This document shows, piece by piece, positions 13,229-60,255 of a stretch of 64,000 nt of DNA; within the stretch, counting starts at the first letter, position 1, and the number at the start of each line of letters is the position of its first letter. Position numbers and translations under genes: made by a program. The notes under the pieces are model-generated. The model was given only the letters and a program-made list of their open reading frames with translations. It was not told the DNA's origin and made no database searches. This DNA comes from Flectonema sp. DT1601 (taxonomy: Eukaryota > Euglenozoa > Diplonemea > Diplonemida > Diplonemidae), in contig OZ025808.1 of the NCBI GenBank assembly GCA_964019425.1, positions 310,001 to 374,000 on the forward strand, written 5' to 3'.

Positions 13229-13717
13229 ATGCTTGAACGGATAATTTACGACAGGCTGATGTATTGGTTGACGTCAAATAATGCCTTGTCCTCCATTCAG
13301 GCAGGTTTCAGAAGGGGTAGGAATACTTGCGAGCAAATCTCACTGCTGGTCAATGCGCTTCATGGTGCGAGAAAAAGTGGTAAGAGTTCAATTCTACTCT
13401 CTTTCGACTTCACTGAGGCATTTGATAGGATAAATCATGTTAAACTGATTGCTAAAATGGTGACGATGGGGATTCCTTCACCATTCATCGGATGGGTTGC
13501 TGACTTTCTGACGCGAAGGAAAGCAAAGGTTAGTGTCAATGGCAATCTGAGCGCATACAGAACTGTGACGAAAGGTGTTCCGCAAGGGTCGATTGTTGGA
13601 CCTCTCCTTTATCTGATATATGTCGACGACCTGGCTAAGAAACTTGAGAAGACTGGATGTGTTTCAGCACTCTACGCAGACGACACAGCTTGTGTGGTTT
13701 CGAATAAGGATTTTAAA
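13229..13717 (+). mobile_element. LINE reverse-transcriptase fragment (ingi/jockey-like)
   Basis: The plus-strand translation reads as the RT of a non-LTR retrotransposon: QAGFRRGRNTCEQ (RT block 2), SFDFTEAFDRINHVKL (block A with catalytic Asp), GVPQGSIVGPLLYLIYVDDL (block B) and ALYADDTACVV (block C, YADD). About 160 residues remain; the endonuclease, the upstream RT fingers and everything beyond the thumb are missing. Both ends are abrupt: the left abuts an A-unit piece, the right abuts an unrelated minus-strand retroelement relic. The open frame continues into that relic only by chance. The block-2 wording is typical of the jockey/CR1/ingi branch. The fragment cannot be mobile. Confidence 0.85.
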
Positions 13718-15733
13718 GTAACTTACCGCATTGGCAACCGAGTCAATTCGAAATACTGCCCATCGTCCGATCTAAAACCAAATAACTTGCGAGCATCATG
13801 AGGAATCTCGACCTGATAAAAACCAGTTCTGAAATCCCTTCCGCTTGCACAATCAAATAGAACTGAGTCGAGGTATTCTGAGATGTGTCCCAAGGGCACA
13901 TCAGCAATGTAACCATCATCAACCAGACGCTCGTTAGACTGCTTCGTCCAAAGAATAAACCTCTGACGTAATCCTGTTGCTTTCTGTTCAATTACAGTGA
14001 ACGGAACATTTTCAACTAAACCAGGCTTCGATGTCTTCTGTGCGATCCCATTCTCCACCAGTAAATCTGCATGAGTACGAGAAAATGAACTCTCCGGTCT
14101 AACCGTCTTTGAAAAATTCAGCACATGATCGAGTTCAGTATGGAAATCAAGTGTAGGAGCATGAGAAACAAGCGAATCAGTGGATCTGGTATTGTGGCAA
14201 ACTTTATGTGGAAAAAATGTTAAATCCCATACAAACTCAAATCTTTTCAGTCGCTTTTGCGACATTCTTTCCTTTACAAACGAAATTAACATGGGTTCAA
14301 TTTTGGTTACATGCAGGGGGGAATTCTTCTCCTCTAATGATCTTGGTAATACCGACCTCTTCGGTCGCCTACAAATATTGTGCTTTCTTACAACAATACT
14401 GTTATCTCGTCCGTCCTTAACGCTCGAGCCATACACATCGGATCTCCTCCATACCGGATCGTCACCCCTGAGAACGGATCGTTCTTCGATGAATGCTTTA
14501 GTAGCCTTCCCATCACCACCTCGTCGACCCTTCTTCCAGTTGACATGATACCCATGATATGAGAAATCGCGCCCCTCTTTATTGAATGCGCCGAATATTT
14601 TCCCATTACTGCATCCCTTCTCCACAACGCATCCAATCCCCTTGTTGAAACCTTTGTGGGCTATCTCTGGAGTCAAAAAGCCTTTTATCACTACCCATCT
14701 CGATGGTTTGAAAGGATCTTCCCTCCGTCCCTTCGGAACATCCCACCAATCCACAATTATTTCCTCCACAGAAATGAAAACGAAATTTCTTCTCCCCAGC
14801 TTCCATACCTCCCCCCATCTCGCCGCCGATTTCCATGCGATCAGTAAGCCCGTCTTCAGCTGAACATCTTGCTTCATTGCCCACGCAATCAAAACAGAAC
14901 GATTTATCGGTTCCGCCTGCTCCAACGGCACCGCAGCGCCGTCTGCCCTTAGCGCCGCCGCTAGCTGCTTCAATGTCTCGTTCTCCAATCCCATCCTCTT
15001 CAGCATGCCTGAGAACGCCTTTGCGTAGGCCAACATTCCTTGCTTCGATACCTTTGTCGCTGTCACAAACAACGCAACTGTATCCTGATTTACAGGGACA
15101 TCGTTTCTCTCCACCCAAATTAGCAGACGGTCCCACAAGCACTGTCGACTTCTCATTGTGCTTTGCGCCCAGATCTTCCCGGCGATTTGTTCCATCACCA
15201 TTAACGAGTCGGTCAAATCCGACGTGTACTCTCTGTTCCGTACCCGCTGAATCTTCCTTACTTGATCCTCGATCTGGTTTTTCATAAGGCTTCCAATCAA
15301 TGTGGAAACCTCTGCTCCTTCCGACTGCATGAGATTCTCCCTTATCTCCCAAATCCGTTCCGGAATAAGGGTCGACCCTTCTGACACCGACTTTCCTAGG
15401 GAAACCTTTCCTGAACCTTTGATACCATGGAAATTCTGAAAACTTGCTGGACCAACGCGGACTAAACACCGCTTTACTTGCTCGGGGCTGGCCTCGGTTC
15501 ACTTTTGACCTTTGCCAGCCCCCCCAACGTTTCCCGAAAATCCCTTTGAATAACTGCTCTTAAATTTATTCTGCGGATTCCAACTTCCTCTCCCCTTATC
15601 CCCTTTCCCATTCCACTCGTTCTTCAGCTTTTTCTCTGCATCTAACTCGGCTAGCTTCACTGCTTTATCAAACGTCTTTCCAGACTTCACTAAGCGCTCG
15701 ATATCATCTGAGCTTATTCGTGAGTGAGCAAGT
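13718..15733 (-). mobile_element. Relic of a tyrosine-recombinase (DIRS/VIPER/TATE-like) retroelement
   Basis: On the minus strand, in order: a short basic Gly/Lys/Asn-rich end that resembles the C-terminus of a gag-like protein, a tyrosine recombinase domain, and the beginning of a reverse transcriptase. This order (recombinase before RT) is that of kinetoplastid VIPER/TATE elements rather than classic DIRS, which supports the organism inference. It is truncated at both ends, one side by the LINE fragment and the other by a B repeat, and is broken at least two or three times within. No terminal repeats remain. GC content is much higher than in the surrounding arrays. It is a fossil of moderate age. 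Confidence 0.75.
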
Positions 15734-43435: not shown

Positions 43436-45282
43436 TGTTTTTTTTTTTTTTTTTCTTCTTTCTTTTCTTCAAATATAAAAAAAAAATTAAAAAATATAAA
43501 AGATGAAACAATGTTATCATTGTTTTTTTTATCGATCGACTATGTCGATTACTTCCAGTTTTCCGTCCTGGTCAAGACGCTAAACTGATTGTTTTTTTTT
43601 TTCAAAATTAATAAAAAAGAATATAAAAAAAAAAAAAAAAAAAAGAATAAACAATGTTATCATTGTTTTTTTATCGTTCGACTTTGTCGACTAATTTCTA
43701 TTTTCCGTTTCTTTTCTTTAAAGAATAAATAAAAAGAATTTAAAATAAAAAAAAAGAATAAACAATGTTATCATTGTTTTTTTATCGATCGACTATGTCG
43801 ATTACTTTCTATTTTCCGTCCTGGTCAAGACGCTAAACTGATTGTTTTTTTTTTTCAAAATTAATAAAAAAGAATATAAAAAAAAAAAAAAAAAAAAAAG
43901 AATAAACAATGTTATCATTGTTTTTTTTTATTGTTCGACTTTGTTGACTAATTTCTATTTTCCGTTTCTTTTCTTTAAAAAATAAATAAAAAGAATTTAA
44001 AATAAAAAAAAAGAATAAACAATGTTATCATTGTTTTTTTATCGATCGACTATGTCGATTACTTTCTATTTTCCGTCCTGGTCAAGACGCTAAACTGATT
44101 GTTTTTTTTTTCAAAATTAACAAAAAAGAATATAAAAAAAAAAAAAAAAAAAAGAATAAACAATGTTATCATTGTTTTTTTTTTATTGTTCGACTTTGTT
44201 GACTAATTTCTATTTTCCGTTTTTTTTTCTTTAAAAAATAAATAAAAAGAATTTAAAATAAAAAAAAAGAATAAACAATGTTATCATTGTTTTTTTTTTA
44301 TCGTTCGACTTTGTCGACTAATTTCTATTTTCCGTTTCTTTTCTTTAAAGAATAAATAAAAAGAATTTAAAATAAAAAAAAAGAATAAACAATGTTATCA
44401 TTGTTTTTTTATCGATCGACTATGTCGATCACTTTCTATTTTCCGTCCTGGTCAAGACGCTAAACTGATTGTTTTTTTTTCAAAATTAATAAAAAAGAAT
44501 ATAAAAAAAAAAAAAAAAAAAAGAATAAACAATGTTATCATTGTTTTTTTTTTATCGTTCGACTTTGTCGACTAATTTCTATTTTCCGTTTCTTTTCTTT
44601 AAAGAATAAATAAAAAGAATTTAAAATAAAAAAAAAAGAATAAACAATGTTATCATTGTTTTTTTTTATCGATCGACTATGTCGATCACTTTCTATTTTC
44701 CGTCCTGGTCAAGACGCTAAACTGATTGTTTTTTTTTTTTCAAAATTAATAAAAAAGAATATAAAAAAATACAAAAAAAAGAATAAACAATGTTATCATT
44801 GTTTTTTTATCGTTCGACTTTGTCGACTAATTTCTATTTTCCGTTTTTTTTTTTTTTTTTTTTCTTTAAAAAATAAATAAAAAGAATTTAAAATAAAAAA
44901 AAGAACAAACAATGTTATCATTGTTTTTTTATCGATCGACTATGTCGATCACTTTCTATTTTCCGTCCTGGTCAAGACGCTAAACTGATTGTTTTTTTTT
45001 TCAAAATTAATAAAAAAGAATATTAAAAAAAATACAAAAAAAAAAGAATAAACAATGTTATCATTGTTTTTTTTTATCGATCGACTAGGTCGATTACTTT
45101 CTATTTTCCGTCCTGGTCAAGACGCTAAACTGATTGTTTTTTTTTTTTCAAAATAAAAAAAAATATTAAAAAAAAAAAAAAAAAAAAAAAGAATAAACAA
45201 TGTTATCATTGTTTTTTTTATCGTTCGACTTTGTTGACTAATTTCTATTTTCCGTTTTTTTCTTTAAAAAATAAATAAAAAG

Positions 45283-45315
<33 letters not shown>

Positions 45316-46354
45316 ATAAACAATGTTATCATTGTTTTTTTATCGATCGACTATGTCGATCACTTTCTATTTTCCGTCCTGGTCAAGACGCTAAACTGAT
45401 TGTTTTTTTTCTTCAAAATTAATAAAAAAGAATATAAAAAAATACAAAAAAAAGAATAAACAATGTTATCATTGTTTTTTTTTATCGTTCGACTTTGTTG
45501 ACTAATTTCTATTTTCCGTTTTTTTTTTTTTTTTCTTTAAAAAATAAATAAAAAGAATTTAAAAAAAAAAAAAAAAAAAAAAAAAGAATAAACAATGTTA
45601 TCATTGTTTTTTTATCGATCGACTATGTCGATCACTTTCTATTTTCCGTCCTGGTCAAGACGCTAAACTGATTGTTTTTTTTTCAAAATAAAAAAAAATA
45701 TTAAAAAAAAAAAAAATTAAAAAAAAGAATAAACAATGTTATCATTGTTTTTTTTTATCGTTCGACTTTGTCGACTAATTTCTATTTTCCGTTTTTTTCT
45801 TTAAAAAATAAATAAAAAGAATTTAAAATAAAAAAAAAAAAGAATAAACAATGTTATCATTGTTTTTTTTATCGATCGACTATGTCGATTACTTTCTATT
45901 TTCCGTCCTGGTCAAGACGCTAAACTGATTGTTTTTTTTTCAAAATTAATAAAAAAGAATATAAAAAAAATAAAAAAAAAAAGAATAAACAATGTTATCA
46001 TTGTTTTTTTTTTATCGTTCGACTTTGTTGACTAATTTCTATTTTCCATTTTTTTTCTTTTTAAAAATAAATAAAAAGAATTAAAATATAAAAAAAAAAA
46101 AGAATAAACAATGTTATCATTGTTTTTTTTTATCGATCGACTATGTCGATTACTTTCTATTTTCCGTCCTGGTCAGGACGATAAACTGATTGTTTTTTCT
46201 TTAAAAATAAATAAAAAGAATAAAAAAAAAAAAAAAAGGAATAAACAATGTTATCATTGTTTTTTTTTTATCGATCGACTATGTCGATTACTTACTATTT
46301 TCCGTCCTGGTCAAGACGCTAAACTGAATGTTTTTTCTTTAAAATAATTAAAAA

Positions 46355-46390
<36 letters not shown>

Positions 46391-46529
46391 AATAAACAAT
46401 GTTATCATTGTTTTTTTTTCTATCGATCAACTATGTCGATTAATTTCTATTTTCCGTCCTGATCGAGACGCTAAACTGATTGTTTCCTTTTTTTAAATAA
46501 TAAATAAGAAAAAAAAAAAAAAAAAAAAA
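43436..46529 (+). repeat. Longest A-unit array, ~22 units, plus orientation
   Basis: Alternating long (three stems) and short (two stems) units for most of its length; the last three are all long, ending with the C-linked variant GTCCTGATCGAGACG. Unit lengths differ mainly in polyA/T runs. Confidence 0.92.
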
Positions 46530-46710
46530 AAGAGCATCTCCCTGCTATCCCCCATATCCCCACAATAATATTATACCTTCTCATTTTCTCTTTCCTTTTC
46601 TGGTCTTTTTTTTTTCTTTTTTTTCCTTTTTCATACAACGTTTTTTATTTATATATATATTTTTTTTTTTTTTTTTCATGTTTGATTATTTCCTCTTCAT
46701 TTTTTTTTTC

Positions 46711-46743
<33 letters not shown>

Positions 46744-46937
46744 TTCTCTGCCTCTCTCTTAATTCTGTTCGTTTCTTTGAAACGAAAATTCATTTGAATA
46801 TTATTCCTTGGTCAGCAACCATCATTGTCGCCCTTTGGGCCTGTTAAAAAAAAATAAAAATAAAAAGAAAGTTTACATCGGGAATAGGGCAGGAGCCAAA
46901 AGCTCCCAGTCCGTTACTTCCCACTTTATCGAAATTC
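46530..46937 (-). mobile_element. C retroposon, minus orientation
   Basis: From AGAGCATCTCCCTGCTATCC to CCCACTTTATCGAAATTCAG. Ends in the common TTTATCGAAAT form, unlike the three copies around the Penelope-like element. Confidence 0.88.
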
Positions 46938-47399
46938 AGCTATTTTCCGTCCTAGTCAAGACGCTAAACTGATTGTTTTTTTTTCAAAATTAATAAAAAA
47001 GAATAAAAAAAAACAAAAAAAAAAAGAATAAACAATGTTATCATTGTTTTTTTTTTATCGTTCGACTTTGTCGACTAATTTTTATTTTCCGTTTTTTTTT
47101 CTTTAAAAATAAATAAAAAGAATTTAAAAAAAAAAAAAAAAAAAAGAATAAACAATGTTATCATTGTTTTTTTATCGATCGACTATGTCGATCACTTTCT
47201 ATTTTCCGTCCTGGTCAAGACGCTAAACTGATTGTTTTTTCTTTAAAATAATAAAAAGGATAAAAAAAAAAGAAAAAAAAAAAAAGAATAAACAATGTTA
47301 TCATTGTTTTTTATCGATCGACTATGTCGATCACTTTCTATTTTCCGTCCTGGTCAAGACGCTAAACTGATTGTTTTTTCTTTAAAAAATAATTAAAAG

Positions 47400-47435
<36 letters not shown>

Positions 47436-47974
47436 ATAAACAATGTTATCATTGTTTTTTTATCGATCGACTATGTCGATCACTTTCAATTTTCCGTCCT
47501 GGTCAGGACGCTAAACTGATTGTTTTTTCTTTAAAAATAAATAAAAAGAATAAAAAAAAAAAAAAAAAAAAAAGGAATAAACAATGTTATCATTGTTTTT
47601 TTTTTATCGATCGACTATGTCGATTACTTTCTATTTTCCGCCCTGGTCAAGACGCTAAACTGATTGTTTTTTCTTTAAAATAATTAAAAGGATTTAAAAA
47701 AAAAAAAAAAAAAAAAAAGAATAAACAATGTTATCATTGTTTTTTTTCTATCGATCGACTATGTCGATCACTTTCAATTTTCCGTCCTGGTCAGGACGCT
47801 AAACTGATTGTTTTTTCTTTAAAAATAAATAAAAAGAATAAAAAAAAAAAAAAAAAAAAAGGAATAAACAATGTTATCATTGTTTTTTTTCTATCGATCA
47901 ACTATGTCGATTAATTTCTATTTTCCGTCCTGATCGAGACGCTAAACTGATTGTTTCCTTTTTTTAAATAATAA

Positions 47975-48004
<30 letters not shown>
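46938..48004 (+). repeat. A array, duplicate of 54299-55219
   Basis: Begins CTATTTTCCGTCCTAGTCAA, a CTAG variant shared only with 54299. Matches that array unit for unit, with one extra long unit near 47750-47875. Confidence 0.9.
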
Positions 48005-48010
<6 letters not shown>

Positions 48011-48402
48011 ATCTCCCTGCTATCCTCATATCCCCACAATAATATTATACCTTTTCATTTTCTCTTTCCTTTTCTGGTCTTTTTTTTTTTCTTTTTTTCC
48101 TTTTTCATACAACGTTTTTTATTTTTATTTTTTTTTTTTTTTTCATGTTTGATTATTTCCTCTTCATATTTTTTTTCTATTCTTTCTTTTTTTTTTTTTT
48201 TTTTTTTCTCTACCTCTCTCTTAATTCTGTTCGTTTCTTTGAAACGAAAATTCATTTGAATATTATTCCTTGGTCAGCAACCATCATTGTCGCCCTTTGG
48301 GCCTGTTAAAAAAAAAAAAAAAATAAAAAGAAAGTTTACATCGGGAATAGGGCAGGAGCCAAAAGCTCCCAGTCCGTTACTTCCCACCTTTTCGAAATTC
48401 AT
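48005..48402 (-). mobile_element. C retroposon, TTTTCGAAAT subtype
   Basis: Ends CCCACCTTTTCGAAAT. This end is shared only with the copies at 55220 and 56776. Directly borders the 5' region of the Penelope-like element. Confidence 0.88.
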
Positions 48403-51400
48403 TCCGTTAGTTGTACTTCCAAACTACTGATCCAGTCCAGAAAAATGAAAACAGAAGGAAACAAATTAAGAAAGTGTTTAGTGTATGTAGCCCCCTTAGG
48501 CTTGCAATTACAAGGGTACAGCTCAAATTCGATTTCATAATCCAAATACGATAGCTTTAGAATATACCAACCAACAAGTTAGACTACATTAGCTTGGATT
48601 CTTTAGTAGGTGCCGAGGCCATGTAATGACCAATACAAACAATTCAAAATCATAATTAATTTAATTCTATGAAAATAAATCTAAACCAAAACGTTACGTA
48701 ATAAAACACGCGACACCCTTGCGTCGAGTACAAAACGCAGGTATATTAAAAGGACAATTAAAGACAACACCGAGTTATATTTATCCATTGGAGAACCTAA
48801 CGTTAGAATTCAAAACTCCCGTTAATATACCAAAAAATCTGAATGCGGTGTATGCGCCTTGCCAGCAGGATGATCTCCACCATGCATTCAACAAAAGGGG
48901 TAATGATAGCAGCTGGTCATTATGTATTTCATACCGTTAGTCTTAGGCAACATCTTCAATGTAATTGGGGATTATTCTTAGACGCCCAACCAAAAGAAAG
49001 CCTCCGTGCAACACGGTTCGTTGTAACAAAACTCATACTAAAAATAATAACAAGGATTACGGCTCCCGCTCTTCCCTCCCTAATATGGACAACTCAAAGA
49101 AAGAATTAAATGAAAAGAAAAACCGTGCATGGCACAAAGACTGGATCAGTACAAAGAGTAACGATTATAGCTATGATTACAGCTATAAGTCGGATAGAGA
49201 AAGGAACAAGGATAGAATTCCGACATGGTTCACGCAGTGGCTCAAAACAATCCATACGGATTTTCGTGAAAATAATAACAAATATAAAAGCACAAAACAT
49301 GTTGAGTCAAAAACAAGCATGAAGGTTGTACCGCATGGTAAGAAAAAACGTTATATTCCTCAGAAGAAAGTAACACACGTGATTCCCCAAAAGAAGGTGA
49401 CACAGATAATTCCTCAGAAGAAGGTGACACATTTCATCCCTCAGAAGAAGGTTACACCAAGAGTGGTCACGCACAAAAACAACCAACAAGGTTCAAAGAA
49501 ACACAATGGTAAGAAAGCGGATAGACAACCTCGATCGGATATGAAAAAGATAAAAAATATACAACAAAGTAAGGTATATTTGGGGACCAAGCAAAAAAGA
49601 GCAAACACGGTTTACATTACAAACCAAACTAAAAAAGTTAGTAATTCATCCAAACCGAATCATATACAGCATGTTAAAAAAGCTCAAAAGCAGAGTAAGA
49701 AAGGTAAGACAAATCAAAAACACTCAGCAAAGAAAGATAGCAACAAAACAGATGGCTATCAAACAGTCCCAGCGTCCAAAAAGAATAGAAAACCCGAAAC
49801 TGTTACGCACAGCGTTAATACGGGCTTTCACAGTGCGATTTTCAATCGTTATGAAGTTATCGCACGTGGCGCACAGCGATCGAAAAACCACGAAGAAGAC
49901 AGAACAAAGGCGTTAAACATCTTTGAGATAACACATAAAAAAAGCCTAGAGATTGGCCGTAAACACAGAAGGATAAAAGATCCACTGAAGTTAAACTCAA
50001 ACGAAACTGGAGTTATTTACGCACTCGTGGATGAAAAGGGTTCGGCTAGATATGTCGGCCAAACTTCTAATACAGCTGCAAAAAGAGAATTAGGTCATTG
50101 GTATTCACGTCATTTGAAAAAAACGACCATTGCTAAATTAATCAAAAAGAGAGGTAGCCCTCTATTTGCAGCAGCATTAGAAAAAGTTAACATCGGTGAC
50201 AGCCTAGTCAAAGAAGTGTTTCATACGGCAGCACACGCAGCTGAAGCATTTTGGATTAGACATTTAAATCCACAGGCAAATATGTTTCGCATGGCTAGTA
50301 AGGCTTATATCGGTAAACCGCTGTCAAAGAGAGACCAAGAAAAAGAACGCAGGGTTCATGAAACACGGGAACCTGCAATTCCGAGAAGATGGTACCACTT
50401 GGAAGGTGATTTAATTATAATCGAGACCAGACAAGGGAAATACATTGGAATTCGAAAACAAATCCAAAGTATGATCTCGGATGGTAAAGTCAACGAAGAC
50501 AAAATTGCCACTTGGACAATCAACAGGACACGAAGGATTCTAACATGGATTTTTGATCACATTGATGCACCACATCAAGAAATTGAAATTGTCAAAAAAA
50601 TAATTCTGGCACTTCGAGATAGACTTTCTGATAAAAAGAAAGACAAAGAAGCGGTGAGAATTTCCAAACTGGGATCCACCTGGTTGAAGATACGGTACGT
50701 TCATCCGATAATTGAACAGCTGGATCTCAAAAGGATATTCACATGTAGGCAAGCGCTCCTCCTCGCAAAAAACTACGCGGATACACTTCCTACAATGAAA
50801 GTGTCAAAGAATCTAACGACAAAGTTAGAAGATTTACTTTGCGACAGAGCCACCGATAGCTCTACTATTGAACCAGAACCGAAATTATGCGACTCCTCAA
50901 CTTGTAAATGTCACAATTTCATCAAAAAGGAATTCAGGGAACGTGAGAAACATGTCATCACACATTCTTCAAAATTGGATATATCAACAAGACTGAAGAC
51001 CCTGTTATCAAGGGGAGCGAAGTATCGGTTATGTGAAGATCCAAAGACAATCACAGAAGAAGTAATGAATGCTATTGACGAATACATCGGTCACTACTTC
51101 CCAGACAAAAAGTTTATTCCACTGTGTAACTTTTTAAAGAACGCCACAAAAAAACAGATTGGGAAATTACCCCAAGTAGATGTCATAGACGAATTTCAAC
51201 AAGTGAGAAAGGAGGTCACAGAATTACGTAAACATCTTGTCTTTACTAACATTGATAAGACAACACACGATCTGGCAGTATGCTGTAAGGCCTACTACAC
51301 CTTCAAATTGAGTGAACAAGTCAATAATAATGTTGTATACTCGAAGATACAAGATGATCAAAAAGAACCGATCTTGGAAAATATCAAAGAGATCAACAAG

Positions 51401-54298
51401 AAATATAAGTTTAGACACACAGAGAACCTGTCATATCTTTATGGCAATCCAAAGATGCACAAGGAACCTCCGAAGTTTAGATTTATAGCCGGTACCTCGA
51501 ACAAAACGATGGATATTAAATATGTTAACTCTAGAAAATCACCGGCACCGTATACGGCAACCACAGACATGTCAATAGAACTTTCTGGTATCCTGAAAGC
51601 ATTTATGTCACTGGTTAAGAAAGTCGAAAAAGATAAATATGATGCGACTAATATTAGAAAATACTTCATCGTTGACAATGTTGATGAAGTTGCAGAATAC
51701 ATCAAAAGCAACTATTCATCCCTCCAACAAAAGAGAGTTAGTACGTTTGACTTCTCGGATATGTATACAAACTTACCACATGAGAGAATTAAAAACGTTA
51801 TCAACTCACTGATTAATGAATACATGGATGATAATATGATGGTCAGAGATAAAAGAAGCGGCACCGGTAAAAACTTCTATCTCGCGAATGAATACGAAGA
51901 AGACGTGCAAGTTGCTTATGGAAAGGATGAAATGAAGGATTTATTAAATCTGATACTTGCGAACTCGTATGTTAAAAACGGAGAGCATATGTTAAGGCAA
52001 TGTCATGGTATTCCGATGGGTTCACAATGCTCGCCTCATATCGCTAACTTATACTGTTTTGGTATAGAAAAGAATTGGGTAAATAACATTATATCCAATA
52101 ATGGGATGAGTGCTGCTGTTGATAATAAAGTCATATTTAGATATATTGATGATTTTCTCATCTTCAGTAAAGACGAACCTAGTCCACCGCCGACTGAAGA
52201 ATATCAAATGTCATACACAGATACATCAATGGGTCGTAATGATGTGGTATTTCTGGGTATGAGAATTAGGTTCGAAGAACGACCAAGGGGACACCCTTTC
52301 GTACGGCTATCTATATGGGACAAAGAAAATCTCTTTAATTTTAGGCCCATCAAATACACAAGTTCTGCATCCAATGCTCCAAAGAGCCTCGGTCCTGGCA
52401 TATTAAAAGGTGCATTATACAGAGCTGCAACGAATATTAATAATGATTTCGATCTGTATTTGGAAATAGAAAAAGTAATCTACAGATTACGCAGCCGAGG
52501 CTATTCCAAAAACAGTCTGTTCCCACAGTTCAAAGACTTTGTTCTGGGAACATACTGGGACTTTCCAAAACAAAGGGATAGCTTACACCATCATTTTTTC
52601 GAAACTAACCGAAGATATGATAACGGAAAATCAGTCACAGCTGAAAAAGAAACAATTCAACAGCATTACAAGGTTATTGGTAGAGATGATATCTACAACC
52701 TCCTTCTTGACAAAGGTATTCCATATGCTAAGCTGAAGAGGAGTGACAACACCATGGTTACTACATTCAAAATAGCCAGCCAAACGATAATTAAAAATGT
52801 TGCTGGATGTGAAAAATGTAAAGCAAATGTCAACGAAAATACCGAGACGCTGATGAACGAACTGAGTATTAAATACCGCGTTGGTATCTTTAAAACAAAT
52901 AAATTCTACAATGAATTTAAGAAGATAATTCCAATCAACGTGAGTATCTTATCTTATGATAAGGGCAAGACAACACGTGAGGTAATCAACAGAGACGATG
53001 AACATGATTGCCACATGTTGATCGGATGTACACAAGGTGGGTACTACTTTCCAATTACGGAAATGTACAATGACACTGACATCCAAAACTTGTTCTTCAA
53101 AGATAGTACAAAAGAATCTACGCCAAAAAAGATAGATACAGGAGCGGATTCAGTCAAAAAATCTGAAGCAGATCCACAAGAGTCCACTACAATGAATACA
53201 AACGGAGATGAGGAATGTTGGGATATTAATAATATTGACAATAAATTTCCGACTTCCCTACACTGCAAACCAGCAGAAGGCTTACAGAGTGGTGAATGTG
53301 GATGGGCAACCATTAACTTTATGGCTGACCATCTTAAAATGGTGAGAGTGAAAATATCACAAATGTTCAAGATACAAGATCAACTAGCTATACAAGAAAA
53401 GAAGTGTTTAAACAATATAGAAATGTTCAAATATGATGCAAATGGATGGTTCCATCAACTGGTCTTATATGAAACAATTAGAATTCACTTCTCACTCAAA
53501 ACTACGCACATTACAACACGTGAAACCCTAGATACGGTTCTAGATGAAGTATTGAAACAAAATTTAAAACGTATACCATTTCTTATAATCTCGCAACGAA
53601 CACCATTTACACATTATATACTCTTCATTGGAGAGGAAATGGAATACAAAGGTTTTGATATTATCAAATCTACAGACAGTTGTGCTGAAATAGAAAACGT
53701 AGTTAAAAGATTCCCACTGGATAAATTCGAATATCATGCTGTGATGCATTCGTCTGAAGATATCCCTCCTGTTGATTTCGAATCATTTATTCTTCCTGTA
53801 AAAACACATCAAAAAAGTTCAACTACCAAAGTCACAAATGAACAGAATGACGATGTACAAATGGAAGATAATAATAATGCAAATATAGTGACTCAAGACG
53901 ACGATGTTACAAAGCTACAAGAAATGATTTCGATACTTGAACACGACAAACCGATGGCAGGAAAACAGAAACCGAACGACACCCAAGTCATAGACAAGGA
54001 TAATACGGTACAACTGGTTCCAATCCAAAAGACAGCTTCCAATGAAACTAAAAAAGCCACAGTGTCAACAAAAACAGTCCATGAGCCGGAAACTATCAAA
54101 AACACAAAGACCACAGCTTCAGCCAAAACAAAGCAAGAGCCGAAGACTAACACAAAGACCACAGCCTCAACAAAACCGAAGATTATTACTAACGATAAAA
54201 AGGCGACAACGTTAACAAAGATAGTTCATGAACCGAAGATTATCACAAAGAATAAAGAAGTCATAGCTCAAGGAATGAATAATATTGTCAATACGGTT
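48403..54298 (+). mobile_element. Penelope-like element, GIY-YIG before RT
   Basis: About 5.9 kb of unique sequence between a C copy and an A array. 48403-49084 is a leader with only short frames (48719-48940, 48843-49109). The rest is one long ORF. A GIY-YIG nuclease N-terminal to the RT is the arrangement described for the Naiad/Chlamys branch of Penelope-like elements; classic Penelope has it at the C-terminus. Both sides carry near-duplicate A-array+C modules in direct orientation (46938-48402 and 54299-55622), reminiscent of the flanking repeats of Penelope elements. I found no hammerhead-type core. The intact ORF indicates a young insertion. Confidence 0.82.
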
Positions 54299-54331
54299 CT
54301 ATTTTCCGTCCTAGTCAAGACGCTAAACTGA
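49085..54331 (+). CDS. GIY-YIG / reverse transcriptase / Josephin-like polyprotein
   Basis: The open frame extends from 48965; I take the first ATG (49085), giving ~1748 residues. Positions below count from 48965. Residues ~130-165: four IPQKKVT repeats in a Lys-rich region. 349-440: GIY-YIG nuclease (GVIY 349, YVGQT 363, R374, E427, N435). 642-650: CDSSTCKCH, a candidate Zn site. ~825-1110: RT with PKMHK..KFRFIAG, FDFSDMYTNLP (D929), GIPMGSQCSP (1015), YIDD (1060-1063) and VFLGMRI. 1282-1285: CEKC. ~1440-1580: cysteine-protease-like segment, C1445, H1550, D1565. The tail is Lys/Thr-rich low complexity. The last ~10 residues (from ~54299) are read from the A array, so the native C-terminus is probably cut. 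RT and GIY-YIG assignments are firm; the protease is inferred from pattern. Confidence 0.88.
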   Translation: MDNSKKELNEKKNRAWHKDWISTKSNDYSYDYSYKSDRERNKDRIPTWFTQWLKTIHTDFRENNNKYKSTKHVESKTSMKVVPHGKKKRYIPQKKVTHVIPQKKVTQIIPQKKVTHFIPQKKVTPRVVTHKNNQQGSKKHNGKKADRQPRSDMKKIKNIQQSKVYLGTKQKRANTVYITNQTKKVSNSSKPNHIQHVKKAQKQSKKGKTNQKHSAKKDSNKTDGYQTVPASKKNRKPETVTHSVNTGFHSAIFNRYEVIARGAQRSKNHEEDRTKALNIFEITHKKSLEIGRKHRRIKDPLKLNSNETGVIYALVDEKGSARYVGQTSNTAAKRELGHWYSRHLKKTTIAKLIKKRGSPLFAAALEKVNIGDSLVKEVFHTAAHAAEAFWIRHLNPQANMFRMASKAYIGKPLSKRDQEKERRVHETREPAIPRRWYHLEGDLIIIETRQGKYIGIRKQIQSMISDGKVNEDKIATWTINRTRRILTWIFDHIDAPHQEIEIVKKIILALRDRLSDKKKDKEAVRISKLGSTWLKIRYVHPIIEQLDLKRIFTCRQALLLAKNYADTLPTMKVSKNLTTKLEDLLCDRATDSSTIEPEPKLCDSSTCKCHNFIKKEFREREKHVITHSSKLDISTRLKTLLSRGAKYRLCEDPKTITEEVMNAIDEYIGHYFPDKKFIPLCNFLKNATKKQIGKLPQVDVIDEFQQVRKEVTELRKHLVFTNIDKTTHDLAVCCKAYYTFKLSEQVNNNVVYSKIQDDQKEPILENIKEINKKYKFRHTENLSYLYGNPKMHKEPPKFRFIAGTSNKTMDIKYVNSRKSPAPYTATTDMSIELSGILKAFMSLVKKVEKDKYDATNIRKYFIVDNVDEVAEYIKSNYSSLQQKRVSTFDFSDMYTNLPHERIKNVINSLINEYMDDNMMVRDKRSGTGKNFYLANEYEEDVQVAYGKDEMKDLLNLILANSYVKNGEHMLRQCHGIPMGSQCSPHIANLYCFGIEKNWVNNIISNNGMSAAVDNKVIFRYIDDFLIFSKDEPSPPPTEEYQMSYTDTSMGRNDVVFLGMRIRFEERPRGHPFVRLSIWDKENLFNFRPIKYTSSASNAPKSLGPGILKGALYRAATNINNDFDLYLEIEKVIYRLRSRGYSKNSLFPQFKDFVLGTYWDFPKQRDSLHHHFFETNRRYDNGKSVTAEKETIQQHYKVIGRDDIYNLLLDKGIPYAKLKRSDNTMVTTFKIASQTIIKNVAGCEKCKANVNENTETLMNELSIKYRVGIFKTNKFYNEFKKIIPINVSILSYDKGKTTREVINRDDEHDCHMLIGCTQGGYYFPITEMYNDTDIQNLFFKDSTKESTPKKIDTGADSVKKSEADPQESTTMNTNGDEECWDINNIDNKFPTSLHCKPAEGLQSGECGWATINFMADHLKMVRVKISQMFKIQDQLAIQEKKCLNNIEMFKYDANGWFHQLVLYETIRIHFSLKTTHITTRETLDTVLDEVLKQNLKRIPFLIISQRTPFTHYILFIGEEMEYKGFDIIKSTDSCAEIENVVKRFPLDKFEYHAVMHSSEDIPPVDFESFILPVKTHQKSSTTKVTNEQNDDVQMEDNNNANIVTQDDDVTKLQEMISILEHDKPMAGKQKPNDTQVIDKDNTVQLVPIQKTASNETKKATVSTKTVHEPETIKNTKTTASAKTKQEPKTNTKTTASTKPKIITNDKKATTLTKIVHEPKIITKNKEVIAQGMNNIVNTVLFSVLVKTLN

Positions 54332-54614
54332 TTGTTTTTTTTTCAAAATTAATAAAAAAGAATAAAAAAAAACAAAAAAAAAAGAATAAACAATGTTATC
54401 ATTGTTTTTTTTTTATCGTTCGACTTTGTCGACTAATTTTTATTTTCCGTTTTTTTTTCTTTAAAAATAAATAAAAAGAATTTAAAAAAAAAAAAAAAAA
54501 AGAATAAACAATGTTATCATTGTTTTTTTATCGATCGACTATGTCGATCACTTTCTATTTTCCGTCCTGGTCAAGACGCTAAACTGATTGTTTTTCTTTA
54601 AAATAATAAAAAGG

Positions 54615-54646
<32 letters not shown>

Positions 54647-54759
54647 AATAAACAATGTTATCATTGTTTTTTATCGATCGACTATGTCGATCACTTTCTA
54701 TTTTCCGTCCTGGTCAAGACGCTAAACTGATTGTTTTTTCTTTAAAAAATAATTAAAAG

Positions 54760-54792
<33 letters not shown>

Positions 54793-55189
54793 AATAAACA
54801 ATGTTATCATTGTTTTTTTATCGATCGACTATGTCGATCACTTTCAATTTTCCGTCCTGGTCAGGACGCTAAACTGATTGTTTTTTCTTTAAAAATAAAT
54901 AAAAAGAATAAAAAAAAAAAAAAAAAAAAAGGAATAAACAATGTTATCATTGTTTTTTTTTTATCGATCGACTATGTCGATTACTTTCTATTTTCCGCCC
55001 TGGTCAAGACGCTAAACTGATTGTTTTTTCTTTAAAATAATTAAAAGGATTTAAAAAAAAAAAAAAAAAAAAAAAAGAATAAACAATGTTATCATTGTTT
55101 TTTTTCTATCGATCGACTATGTCGATTAATTTCTATTTTCCGTCCTGATCGAGACGCTAAACTGATTGTTTCCCTTTTTTAAATAATAA

Positions 55190-55219
<30 letters not shown>
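54299..55219 (+). repeat. A array, duplicate of 46938-48004
   Basis: CTATTTTCCGTCCTAGTCAA start, six units, C-linked variant last. Forms the right-hand direct repeat around the Penelope-like element. Confidence 0.9.
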
Positions 55220-55225
<6 letters not shown>

Positions 55226-55622
55226 ATCTCCCTGCTATCCTCATATCCCCACAATAATATTATACCTTTTCATTTTCTCTTTCCTTTTCTGGTCTTTTTT
55301 TTTTCTTTTTTTCCTTTTTCATACAACGTTTTTTATTTATATTTTTTTTTTTTTTTTTTTTTCATGTTTGATTATTTCCTCTTCATATTTTTTTTCTATT
55401 CTTTCTTTTTTTTTTTTTTTTTTTTTTTTTTCTCTACCTCTCTCTTAATTCTGTTCGTTTCTTTGAAACGAAAATTCATTTGAATATTATTCCTTGGTCA
55501 GCAACCATCATTGTCGCCCTTTGGGCCTGTTAAAAAAAAAAAAAAAATAAAAAGAAAGTTTACATCGGGAATAGGGCAGGAGCCAAAAGCTCCCAGTCCG
55601 TTACTTCCCACCTTTTCGAAAT
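55220..55622 (-). mobile_element. C retroposon, TTTTCGAAAT subtype
   Basis: Near-identical to 48005-48402. Its outer end adjoins the leader of the zinc-finger ORF. Confidence 0.88.
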
Positions 55623-55667
55623 CCAAGGAAATACTTTCCACAACTAAGTACATCAGATCGGATTAAG

Positions 55668-56891
55668 ATGATGGACACAATGTTAAATATGAAATACACC
55701 AATAGAGGTACTCATATTATAAAAACCGAACCAGCATGGAACTTTGAAATTAAAAAGCTAGATACGGATGTACTAATGCTATCCCCGGTGAGAGATACAC
55801 AATTGTTATCTCCGGAAAAAGTAAGTTCGAAACCATGCATTATTCCAACTGTTCCAAACATGACAAAATGTCATACACCACTTTATGACTCACCTGCGGA
55901 TATTACATACCAAACCATGACAATATCACCACCGGATACCCATGTTGGGGCAAATCAAATTAAAGCCATCTCACCACCGGATTTCAATACCCCGGAACAT
56001 CGTTATGCATTTATGGATACACCAATGTTGACTAACGCCACGGCACCTAAGACAGAAGTGAAACATCCTGTAAAATACAACATTAGGACTCCTACTTTAA
56101 AGAAAGTAGCCCAAGAGCCTAAAACATGTTGGAACGGTCATAATCGAGAGTTGATTCGTAATCTCTCGATGGAAAGACAGGATAATAAGATAGTTACAAC
56201 ATACTATCTCACTCCACCTAGAACAACAACACCTGTAATAGTTGCAACTAATGCTACCACACCTGTAACAATTACACGTATGAACAAAGAGGAAGCTATA
56301 CACACGGTAACAAGAGCCAATACAATAACGATACTGAATGAGCGGGCAAAACCCACGGATCTCGGCAATACGAAACGCAGCAAGAAAATCAAGAAGATCT
56401 CTCGTAAGAAAGTTAAAAAAGGCAAGAATGATAAAAAGTTGATCAAGATCACTGACACTTCTAAAACACAGAAACCGACAACAATAACTTGCACGACAGA
56501 TCAAATAATCAATGCGATTAAAACCACTACGAAAAATGATACCTGCGCCAACACATCTGATAATGGCAATACGGATGAGACATCAAAGAAGAACAAGAAC
56601 TCATGCATTACGCCACCTATCACACCGCCACAAAGATCTATAGAACCGACATATGTAGACACAGATAATATCAAGAGAATATGTCGATACTGTGGGAAGA
56701 CTAAAAAATCGATTATTCATCATTTAACCAAATGTTCATTGTTCAAAGCTTCAAAGGACTATCCGACTTATATGAATTTCGAAAAGGTGGGAAGTAACGG
56801 ACTGGGAGCTTTTGGCTCCTGCCCTATTCCCGATGTAAACTTTCTTTTTATTTTTTTTTTTTTTTTTAACAGGCCCAAAGGGCGACAATGA
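55668..56891 (+). CDS. Unknown Thr/Lys/Pro-rich protein with a CCHC finger, C-terminus replaced
   Basis: Starts at tandem ATGs (55668, 55671). About 370 native residues, rich in Thr, Lys, Asn and Pro with recurring SPPD and TPP words, a very basic stretch near residues 237-262 (KRSKKIKKISRKKVKKGKND), and C339-x2-C342-x8-H351-x4-C356 near the end. From ~56776 the frame runs into a C retroposon, so the final ~38 residues are repeat-derived and the true end is lost. Composition and basic, Thr/Lys-rich style match the Penelope-like ORF 1.3 kb upstream, and both are bordered by the same C subtype. It may be a companion nucleic-acid-binding protein of that element; no family match is recognised. 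Confidence 0.6.
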   Translation: MMDTMLNMKYTNRGTHIIKTEPAWNFEIKKLDTDVLMLSPVRDTQLLSPEKVSSKPCIIPTVPNMTKCHTPLYDSPADITYQTMTISPPDTHVGANQIKAISPPDFNTPEHRYAFMDTPMLTNATAPKTEVKHPVKYNIRTPTLKKVAQEPKTCWNGHNRELIRNLSMERQDNKIVTTYYLTPPRTTTPVIVATNATTPVTITRMNKEEAIHTVTRANTITILNERAKPTDLGNTKRSKKIKKISRKKVKKGKNDKKLIKITDTSKTQKPTTITCTTDQIINAIKTTTKNDTCANTSDNGNTDETSKKNKNSCITPPITPPQRSIEPTYVDTDNIKRICRYCGKTKKSIIHHLTKCSLFKASKDYPTYMNFEKVGSNGLGAFGSCPIPDVNFLFIFFFFFNRPKGRQ

Positions 56892-57168
56892 TGGTTGCTG
56901 ACCAAGGAATAATATTCAAATGAATTTTCGTTTCAAAGAAACGAACAGAATTAAGAGAGAGGTAGAGAAAAAAAAAAAAAAAAAAAAAAAAGAAAGAATA
57001 GAAAAAAAATATGAAGAGGAAATAATCAAACATGAAAAAAAAAAAAAAAAAATATAAATAAAAAACGTTGTATGAAAAAGGAAAAAAAGAAAAAAAAAAG
57101 ACCAGAAAAGGAAAGAGAAAATGAAAAGGTATAATATTATTGTGGGGATATGAGGATAGCAGGGAGAT

Positions 57169-57205
<37 letters not shown>
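56776..57205 (+). mobile_element. C retroposon, TTTTCGAAAT subtype, plus orientation
   Basis: AATTTCGAAAAGGTGGGAAG head, full length to GCAGGGAGATGCTC and a T run. It is in inverted orientation to the copy at 55220, so the zinc-finger ORF sits between inverted C copies. Confidence 0.88.
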
Positions 57206-57207
<2 letters not shown>

Positions 57208-57749
57208 TTATTATTTAAAAAAGGGAAACAATCAGTTTAGCGTCTCGATCAGGACGGAAAATAGAAATTAATCGACATAGTCGATCGATAGAAAAAAAAC
57301 AATGATAACATTGTTTATTCCTTTTTTTTTTTTTTTTTTTTTTATTCTGTTTATTTATTTTTAAAGAAAAAACAATCAGTTTAGCGTCCTGACCAGGACG
57401 GAAAATTGAAAGTGATCGACATAGTCGATCGATAGAAAAAAAACAATGATAACATTGTTTATTCTTTTTTTTTTTTTTTTTTTTTTTTTAAATCCTTTTA
57501 ATTATTTTAAAGAAAAAACAATCAGTTTAGCGTCTTGACCAGGGCGGAAAATAGAAAGTAATCGACATAGTCGATCGATAAAAAAAAAACAATGATAACA
57601 TTGTTTATTCCTTTTTTTTTTTTTTTTTTTTTATTCTTTTTATTTATTTTTAAAGAAAAAACAATCAGTTTAGCGTCCTGACCAGGACGGAAAATTGAAA
57701 GTGATCGACATAGTCGATCGATAAAAAAACAATGATAACATTGTTTATT

Positions 57750-57782
<33 letters not shown>

Positions 57783-57894
57783 CTTTTAATTATTTTTTAA
57801 AGAAAAAACAATCAGTTTAGCGTCTTGACCAGGACGGAAAATAGAAAGTGATCGACATAGTCGATCGATAAAAAACAATGATAACATTGTTTAT

Positions 57895-57929
<35 letters not shown>

Positions 57930-58557
57930 CCTTTTTATTATTTTAAAGAAAAACAATCAGTTTAGCGTCTTGACCAGGACGGAAAATAGAAAGTGATCGA
58001 CATAGTCGATCGATAAAAAAACAATGATAACATTGTTTATTCTTTTTTTTTTTTTTTTTTAAATTCTTTTTATTTATTTTTAAAGAAAAAAAAACGGAAA
58101 ATAAAAATTAGTCGACAAAGTCGAACGATAAAAAAAAAACAATGATAACATTGTTTATTCTTTTTTTTTTGTTTTTTTTTATTCTTTTTTATTAATTTTG
58201 AAAAAAAAACAATCAGTTTAGCGTCTTGACTAGGACGGAAAATAGAAAGTAATCGACATAGTCGATCGATAAAAAAAAACAATGATAACATTGTTTACTC
58301 TTTTTTTTTTCTTTTTTTAAATTCTTTTTATTTTAAAAAGAAAAAAAACGGAAAATAGAAATTAGTCGACAAAGTCGAACGATAAAAAAAAAACAATGAT
58401 AACATTGTTTATTCTTTTTTTTTATTTTTTTTTTTTATATTCTTTTTTATTAATTTTGAAAAAAAAACAATCAGTTTAGCGTCTTGACCAGGACGGAAAA
58501 TAGAAAGTGATCGACATAGTCGATCGATAAAAAAAAAACAATGATAACATTGTTTAT

Positions 58558-58593
<36 letters not shown>

Positions 58594-58964
58594 CTTTTTT
58601 TTTTTTTAAAGAAAAAACAATCAGTTTAGCGTCTTGACCAGGACGGAAAATAGAAAGTAATCGACATAGTCGATCGATAAAAAAAACAATGATAACATTG
58701 TTTATTGTTTTTTTTTTTTTTTAAATCTTTTTATTTATTTTTTAAAAAGAAAAGAAAAAAACGGAAAATAGAAATTAGTCAACAACGTCGAACGATAAAA
58801 AAAAAACAATGATAACATTGTTTATTCTTTTTTTTTTATTTTTTTTTGTATTCTTTTTTATTAATTTTGAAAAAAAACAATCAGTTTTGCGTCTTGACCA
58901 GGACGGAAAATAGAAAGTGATCGACATAGTCGATCGATAAAAAAACAATGATAACATTGTTTAT

Positions 58965-59002
<38 letters not shown>

Positions 59003-59116
59003 CTTTTTATTATTTTTAAAGAAAAAACAATCAGTTTAGCGTCTTGACCAGGACGAAAAATAGAAAGTGATCGACATAGTCGATCGATAAAATAAAACAA
59101 TGATAACATTGTTTAT

Positions 59117-59149
<33 letters not shown>

Positions 59150-60255
59150 CTTCTTTTTATTTTTTAAAGAAAAAACAATCAGTTTAGCGTCTTGACCAGG
59201 ACGGAAAATAGAAAGTAATCGACATAGTCGATCGATAAAATAAAAACAATGATAACATTGTTTATTCCTTTTTTTTTTTTTTTTATTCTTTTTATTTATT
59301 TTTAAAGAAAAAACAATCAGTTTAGCGTCCTGACCAGGACGGGAAATAGAAAGTGATCGACATAGTCGATCGATAAAAAAACAATGATAACATTGTTTAT
59401 TCTTTTTTTTTTTTTTTTTTTTTTTTTTAATTCTTTTTATTTATTTTTTAAAGAAAAAACAATCAGTTTAGCGTCCTGACCAGGACGGAAAATAGAAAGT
59501 AATCGACATAGTCGATCGATAAAAAAAAACAATGATAACATTGTTTAATCTTTTTTTTTTTTTTTTTTTTTTATTCTTTTTATTTATTTAGAAAAAACAA
59601 TCAGTTTAGCGTCTTGACCAGGACGGAAAATAGAAATTAGTCGACAAAGTCGATCGATAAAAAAACAATGATAACATTGTTTATTCTTTTTTTTTTTTTT
59701 TTTTTTAAATTCTTTTTATTTATTTTTAAAGAAAAAAAAAAACGGAAAATAGAAATTAGTCGACAAAGTCGAACGATAAAAAAACAATGATAACATTGTT
59801 TATTCTTTTTTTTATTTTTTTTTTTTTTTATTCTTTTTTATTAATTTTGAAAAAAAAAAAACAATCAGTTTAGCGTCTTGACCAGGACGGAAAATAGAAA
59901 GTAATCGACATAGTCGATCGATAAAAAAACAATGATAACATTGTTTATTCTTTTTTTTTTTTTTTTTTTTTTAAATTCTTTTTATTTATTTTTTAAGAAG
60001 AAAAACGGAAAATAGAAATTAGTCGACAAAGTCGAACGATAAAAAAACAATGATAACATTGTTTATTCTTTTTTTTATTTTTTTTTTTATATTCTTTTTT
60101 ATTAATTTTGAAAAAAAAAAAAAAAAACAATCAGTTTAGCGTCTTGACCAGGACGGAAAATAGAAAGTAATCGACATAGTCGATCGATAAAAATACAATG
60201 ATAACATTGTTTAATCTTTTATAATTTTTTATTTTTTTTTTTGTTTTAAAAAAAA
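57206..60255 (-). repeat. A-unit array, minus orientation, ~20-22 units
   Basis: First unit is the C-linked variant, then long units, then alternating long and short. Ends TTTAATCTTTTATAATTTTT. The order mirrors 43436-46529 and parallels 25686-27438 plus 24236-24689. Confidence 0.92.

Follow-up and report, generated by a model that had tools for sequence, protein, structure and literature searches.

Penelope-like elements (PLEs) of the Naiad/Chlamys type possess an N-terminal GIY-YIG domain, and ubiquitin-based host control of retrotransposons is known. The element described here was found in Flectonema sp. DT1601 (genome assembly of 89.5 Mb in 92 contigs), in a window of 64,000 nucleotides (C29:310001-374000), where it is represented by a single open reading frame (ORF) of 1788 amino acids (aa). 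With the Naiad/Chlamys type it shares a reverse transcriptase (RT) and the GIY-YIG domain before it, and it adds a predicted papain-like domain at the C-terminus, tandem 3' repeats, and a second ORF. In the consulted part of PMC6431247 PLEs are presented as RT plus GIY-YIG, Terminons as carriers of other accessory genes, and Helentrons as carriers of OTU-like cysteine proteases; the latter have in common with the present element a cysteine protease borne by a mobile element, while the protease family and the element class differ.

The C-terminal domain is interpreted, with a probability of about 0.5, as a papain-like cysteine protease of Josephin type, which is predicted to retain a Cys-His-Asp triad and is proposed to be a deubiquitinase acting in cis. 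The literature searched (titles and abstract openings) revealed no retroelement, Penelope-like or other, with a Josephin domain, and no element with a deubiquitinase-like domain covalently joined to RT; PMC13010821, in its consulted part, deals with retrocopies of the ataxin-3 gene and not with a mobile element bearing such a domain. Two Penelope papers contain the word 'josephin' once each, presumably as the name of an institute. If active, the domain would extend Josephin-like enzymes to mobile elements and would make it possible to test directly if ubiquitin is limiting for Penelope-type retrotransposition, and the element, if the proposal is true, would be a retrotransposon with a built-in antidote to proteasomal control.

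Predicted fold and catalytic residues of the C-terminal domain

The initial annotation had claimed a Josephin-like cysteine-protease domain downstream of the RT and had named structure prediction against known families as a check. The AlphaFold2 model of the domain (extent in Table 1) reached a predicted local distance difference test (pLDDT) score of 78.1 and a predicted template modelling (pTM) score of 0.79, with the final 12 residues below pLDDT 50. The nine best Foldseek matches of this model are all Josephins and five Josephin entries stand at the top of the VIA-align ranking, so that the check favours Josephin, and the predicted fold together with the conserved triad supports the claimed domain. 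A papain-like fold nearest to solved Josephins is predicted by this model, a second model being inconclusive, and the solved Josephins among the matches are ubiquitin enzymes by their titles. Neither OTU nor C48 entries occur among the 50 VIA matches listed, by which neither family is excluded, and BFVD gave no match at E<=0.001, an Orpheovirus Josephin ranking third (2.9e-3). According to the model the domain very probably has a Josephin-like fold.

With ataxin-3, ataxin-3-like, and JOSD2 (PF02099) the domain shares the predicted fold, the order Cys-His-(Asn/Asp), the distance of 15 residues from His to the third residue, and a G-(W/F)-F helix in register; the third residue is Asp here (D1565) and in JOSD2, and Asn in ataxin-3. 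It differs from these three in being fused to RT, in the lack of a PF02099 profile match and of a conserved Gln four residues before the Cys (C-4), and in its own signature H..EG..GECGWA..NF, which together with GWF, H, and D provides a handle for locating the family elsewhere. The bacterial Josephins PcJOS, BpJOS, and PaJOS (PDB 9fn4, 9f5t, 9g7g) differ as bacterial proteins with no retroelement, and the titles call BpJOS and PaJOS clippases, the former specifically a ubiquitin C-terminal one.

Conservation was followed in the alignment A3, which comprises seven rows hand-picked for diversity (the window; pieces of P0002 and P0005; P0003; pieces of L065, L062, and L066), 23-54% identical to the window row, and from which nearly identical loci as well as L060, L061, and L067-L069, all decayed, were excluded. 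Its invariant columns include H, EG, GECGWA, NF, GWF, the catalytic His and Asp, and one later His. The Cys, His, and Asp columns are invariant in all seven rows, which sets the triad apart from a chance pattern, the three residues are also present in the metagenomic protein P0013, and their order comes with Josephin-family spacing in each of these eight cases. A count among 65 loci (8 duplicates or related fetches excluded, a few overlaps remaining, decayed copies counted where readable) gave Cys in 59/59, His in 61/62, and Asp in 61/62 where the alignment covers the site, sites without coverage being uncounted, so that lost sites drop out and the count is biased towards conservation; the exceptions are L067 and L060, both decayed copies. 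A loose motif search, in which the nucleophile position was unconstrained, yielded 63 occurrences, overlapping loci being counted double, and all 63 have Cys at that position, one of them with a stop directly before it.

The residues Q1441, C1445, H1550, and D1565 lie in the window where the initial annotation had placed them, with 105 residues from Cys to His and 15 from His to Asp, and Q9, C14, H119, and N134 of ataxin-3 were confirmed (sequence identical to PDB 1yzb). The claimed agreement in spacing held in part: the Cys-His distance is 105 in only three of the seven rows and 104, 97, 97, and 95 in the others (the 104 derives from a broken copy with its pieces placed end to end), JOSD2 having 101, while the His-Asp distance is 15 in six rows and P0013 and 16 in the remaining row. 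Because the former varies from 95 to 105, the exact match with ataxin-3 is partly fortuitous, and the 105-residue spacing was rejected as evidence in itself. The C-7 position is Glu in all seven rows and Gln in P0013. The VIA alignment starts at model residue 16, paired with residue 5 of 3o65, 1yzb, and 2dos, an offset that would place E1438 on ataxin-3 Q9; judging from this alignment end point, the residue at C-7 may occupy the oxyanion place.

The Gln four residues before the Cys, which the initial annotation had taken as a Josephin sign, is not conserved, the C-4 residue being Q, N, L, I, R, I, and S across A3 and V in P0013, and Q1441 was rejected as a functional Gln. PF02099 gave no match at E<=10 in any of the seven rows, and the hhalign comparison of eight family rows with three Josephins, weak by itself, reached a probability of 1.7% and a score of 20.0. 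The missing match to the curated profile is the reason why the domain is filed as Josephin-like and not as a PF02099 member. In the hhalign control, none of 100 column-shuffled Josephin alignments reached 20.0 (maximum 19.3, mean 13.0). In this profile-profile alignment the Cys, GWF, and His pair with C14, GFF, and H119 of ataxin-3; in line with the suggested likeness of the intervening helix to the Josephin GFFSIQVI helix, the NGWF helix pairs with the SGFF helix of ataxin-3. A gap-free extension past the hhalign end would place D1565 on N134.

Other sequence searches were silent: neither Pfam nor NCBIfam matched the C-terminal region of the ORF significantly, the A3 profile and P0013 each returned 0 matches at E<=10 against the PDB sequences, and four pattern-matching stretches found with A3 in viral contigs were not confirmed. 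A Josephin family search of the genome gave no match, the control genomes being equally silent and the search hence uninformative. A Longin match of P0003 (E 0.00076; 29 residues within the domain; at 19.8 bits below the cut-off of 26.2) was rejected. The Ulp1/C48 residue order is His-Asp-Gln-Cys, from which the conserved order Cys-His-Asp of the domain departs.

Copies, constraint, and possible origin

The element is abundant and diverse in the genome. The search with the full ORF gave at least 29 matches, some being pieces of one copy (26 scored of 741 candidates, a lower bound), and 12 of the 29, as read from the table of matches, are stop-free and span query residues 877-1581 with RT core and triad. 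P0003, a diverged domain version beside L023 (23% identity with the A3 row of the window), gave at least 152 matches at E<=0.001, many of them fragmentary or stop-bearing (150 scored of 208 candidates).

Of the seven A3 versions, six (all except L066) were inspected for an RT; five of these have the domain fused behind one, and none is in view for L062. The fused versions are the window, the P0002/L011 type, the L065/L003 type, and two compact subfamilies, L070 (1380 aa) and L071 (start beyond the fetched stretch), in which GIY-YIG, RT, and the domain were recognised in-frame by eye. The L070 RT is 38% identical to the window RT over 317 codons, and P0005 (610 aa, L071 type) showed no RVT_1 at E<=10 in the Pfam scan. 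Judged by these copies, the fusion is kept in several diverged subfamilies. Nonsynonymous and synonymous divergence (dN, dS; NG86) between L070 and L071 amounts to 0.294 and 2.43 for the domain and to 0.187 and 3.20 for the RT; the window-L011 RT pair has a ratio of 0.05, and all other pairs have saturated dS. By these estimates the domain is faster-evolving than the RT yet constrained.

In a search of 5.8 billion proteins P0002 and P0005 were found, one each, and the A3 profile retrieved ten proteins at E<=1, eight of which are by eye copies of known element types, while P0013 and P0015 clearly differ. P0013, on a 1032-bp JGI contig, lies outside the element types described here and has all three catalytic residues; P0015, an N-terminal fragment from an ENA contig of 807 kb, is a domain relative likewise outside these types. 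L073 (G000:C22:697900-698520) is a truncated or rearranged copy with other sequence in place of the portion preceding CGWA, H..EG included.

A lone version of the domain was noted on contig C66 (154715-155188, minus strand, 185-aa open frame; in L072, G000:C66:152600-157600), with 30% identity to the closest match in the rest of the genome. Inspection by eye of the nine longest frames in the surrounding 5 kb revealed no RT. An ORF without significant Pfam match ends just upstream, and a 64-base GT..AG stretch, a putative intron, would join both in frame. The lone version could be a host donor or a domesticated copy. In a scenario somewhat less likely than not, a Penelope-like lineage acquired a Josephin-type deubiquitinase, possibly of host origin, and retained it fused to RT across deep divergence, where it would strip ubiquitin from the retrotransposition machinery.

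Proposed deubiquitination and its alternatives

With its triad intact and conserved, the domain is more likely to be an enzyme than a module for binding alone, and is probably a catalytically active cysteine (iso)peptidase. According to the proposed mechanism it would hydrolyse the isopeptide bond following ubiquitin and would act in cis on the element's own RT and ribonucleoprotein (RNP), stripping host-attached ubiquitin, and the deubiquitinated protein could then persist until reverse transcription takes place at the target. Self-deubiquitination is the simplest account, since Josephins act on ubiquitin and the domain is tied to RT; a deubiquitinase protecting its own RNP is suggested with a chance slightly short of even. 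Polyprotein processing appears less plausible than self-deubiquitination, and action on host proteins comes after both.

Viral and LTR-element (long terminal repeat) proteases perform cis processing, and with the same fold the domain might cut the element's own polyprotein, freeing the RT from the N- or C-terminal parts. This reading agrees with the one long multidomain ORF and with a GG segment (GCT or GRT..GG; at aa 1354 in the window) that the examined copies of window type (window, L011, L003, L006, L014) conserve between RT and domain; however, the segment would at most be a candidate site, the compact-subfamily proteins L070 and L071 lack it, and the consulted part of PMC6431247 describes PLEs with RT and GIY-YIG but no protease, and self-processing is rather unlikely. 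Even less probable is an action in trans on host proteins, through ubiquitin or a ubiquitin-like modifier, by which, for example, a host defence would be blunted or chromatin opened at the target: the ubiquitin enzymes among the fold matches are in line with it, and the abundance and diversity of the element are compatible with a host-element contest, but the covalent fusion to RT favours cis over trans action.

A papain-like peptidase nearer to C39 or to another branch, with the Josephin ranking as an effect of the thin alignment, likewise has a low probability. The Peptidase C39 profile matches two of the seven A3 rows (best E 0.034, the bit score of that row being unlisted) and reaches 12.6 bits on the L062 piece, its cut-off being 22. 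In the structural comparison with the good model the C39 domains of HlyB, ComA, and PCAT1, which are bacterial ABC transporters, scored lower.

Architecture of the element and its surroundings

The domain order in the ORF is N-terminal part, GIY-YIG, RT, linker, Josephin-like domain, and low-complexity tail. GIY-YIG and RT lie together in the ORF, as in PLEs, the former under its curated cut-off (E=0.0017, 19 bits against 22.6 on the 121-aa piece) and absent from the Pfam matches at E<=1 in the scan of the complete ORF; on this domain content the ORF is that of a Penelope-like retroelement. The phmmer search of the RT against PDB gave 0 matches at E<=1, and no hammerhead ribozyme was among the five Rfam matches at E<=1 within 45000-60000.

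Table 1. Features of the element, in window coordinates
Feature	Position	Strand	Basis
Single ORF, 1788 aa	48965..54331	+	Uninterrupted reading frame
GIY-YIG endonuclease-like domain, inside 121-aa piece N-terminal to RT	50012..50374	+	Pfam PF01541
Reverse transcriptase core, aa 877-1071	51593..52177	+	Pfam PF00078, E=6.1e-9
Josephin-like domain as modelled, aa 1419-1612	53219..53800	+	AlphaFold2 model, PDB fold matches
E1438 (C-7), candidate oxyanion position	53276..53278	+	
Q1441, Gln at C-4, not conserved	53285..53287	+	
C1445, predicted nucleophile, at position two of model helix 26-39	53297..53299	+	
H1550, predicted catalytic His, immediately before model strand 133-138	53612..53614	+	
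D1565, third residue of the predicted triad, where model strand 143-147 ends	53657..53659	+	
Tandem repeats, units ~118-145 bp, immediately 3' of the 1788-aa ORF	54335..55223	+	
Second ORF, 407 aa, C..C..H..C motif	55668..56891	+	Motif read by eye

The second ORF had no Pfam match at E<=10; a similar one (C-Y-C-x-K-T-K-K-S-I-I-x-H region) was noted downstream of the RT-domain ORF in a copy of another subfamily, L059. Elsewhere in the window an RT-like fragment (13229-13801) and an overlapping opposite-strand ORF (13723-15387, no Pfam match at E<=0.01) are by eye apparently remains of other mobile elements. AT-rich tandem-repeat arrays with units of ~115-150 bp and multiples surround the ORF (44140-46532, 46976-48008, 54335-55223, and, inverted, 57175-60247); the upstream array at 46976-48008 resembles the 3' array, and the final codons of the 1788-aa ORF extend into a repeat copy.
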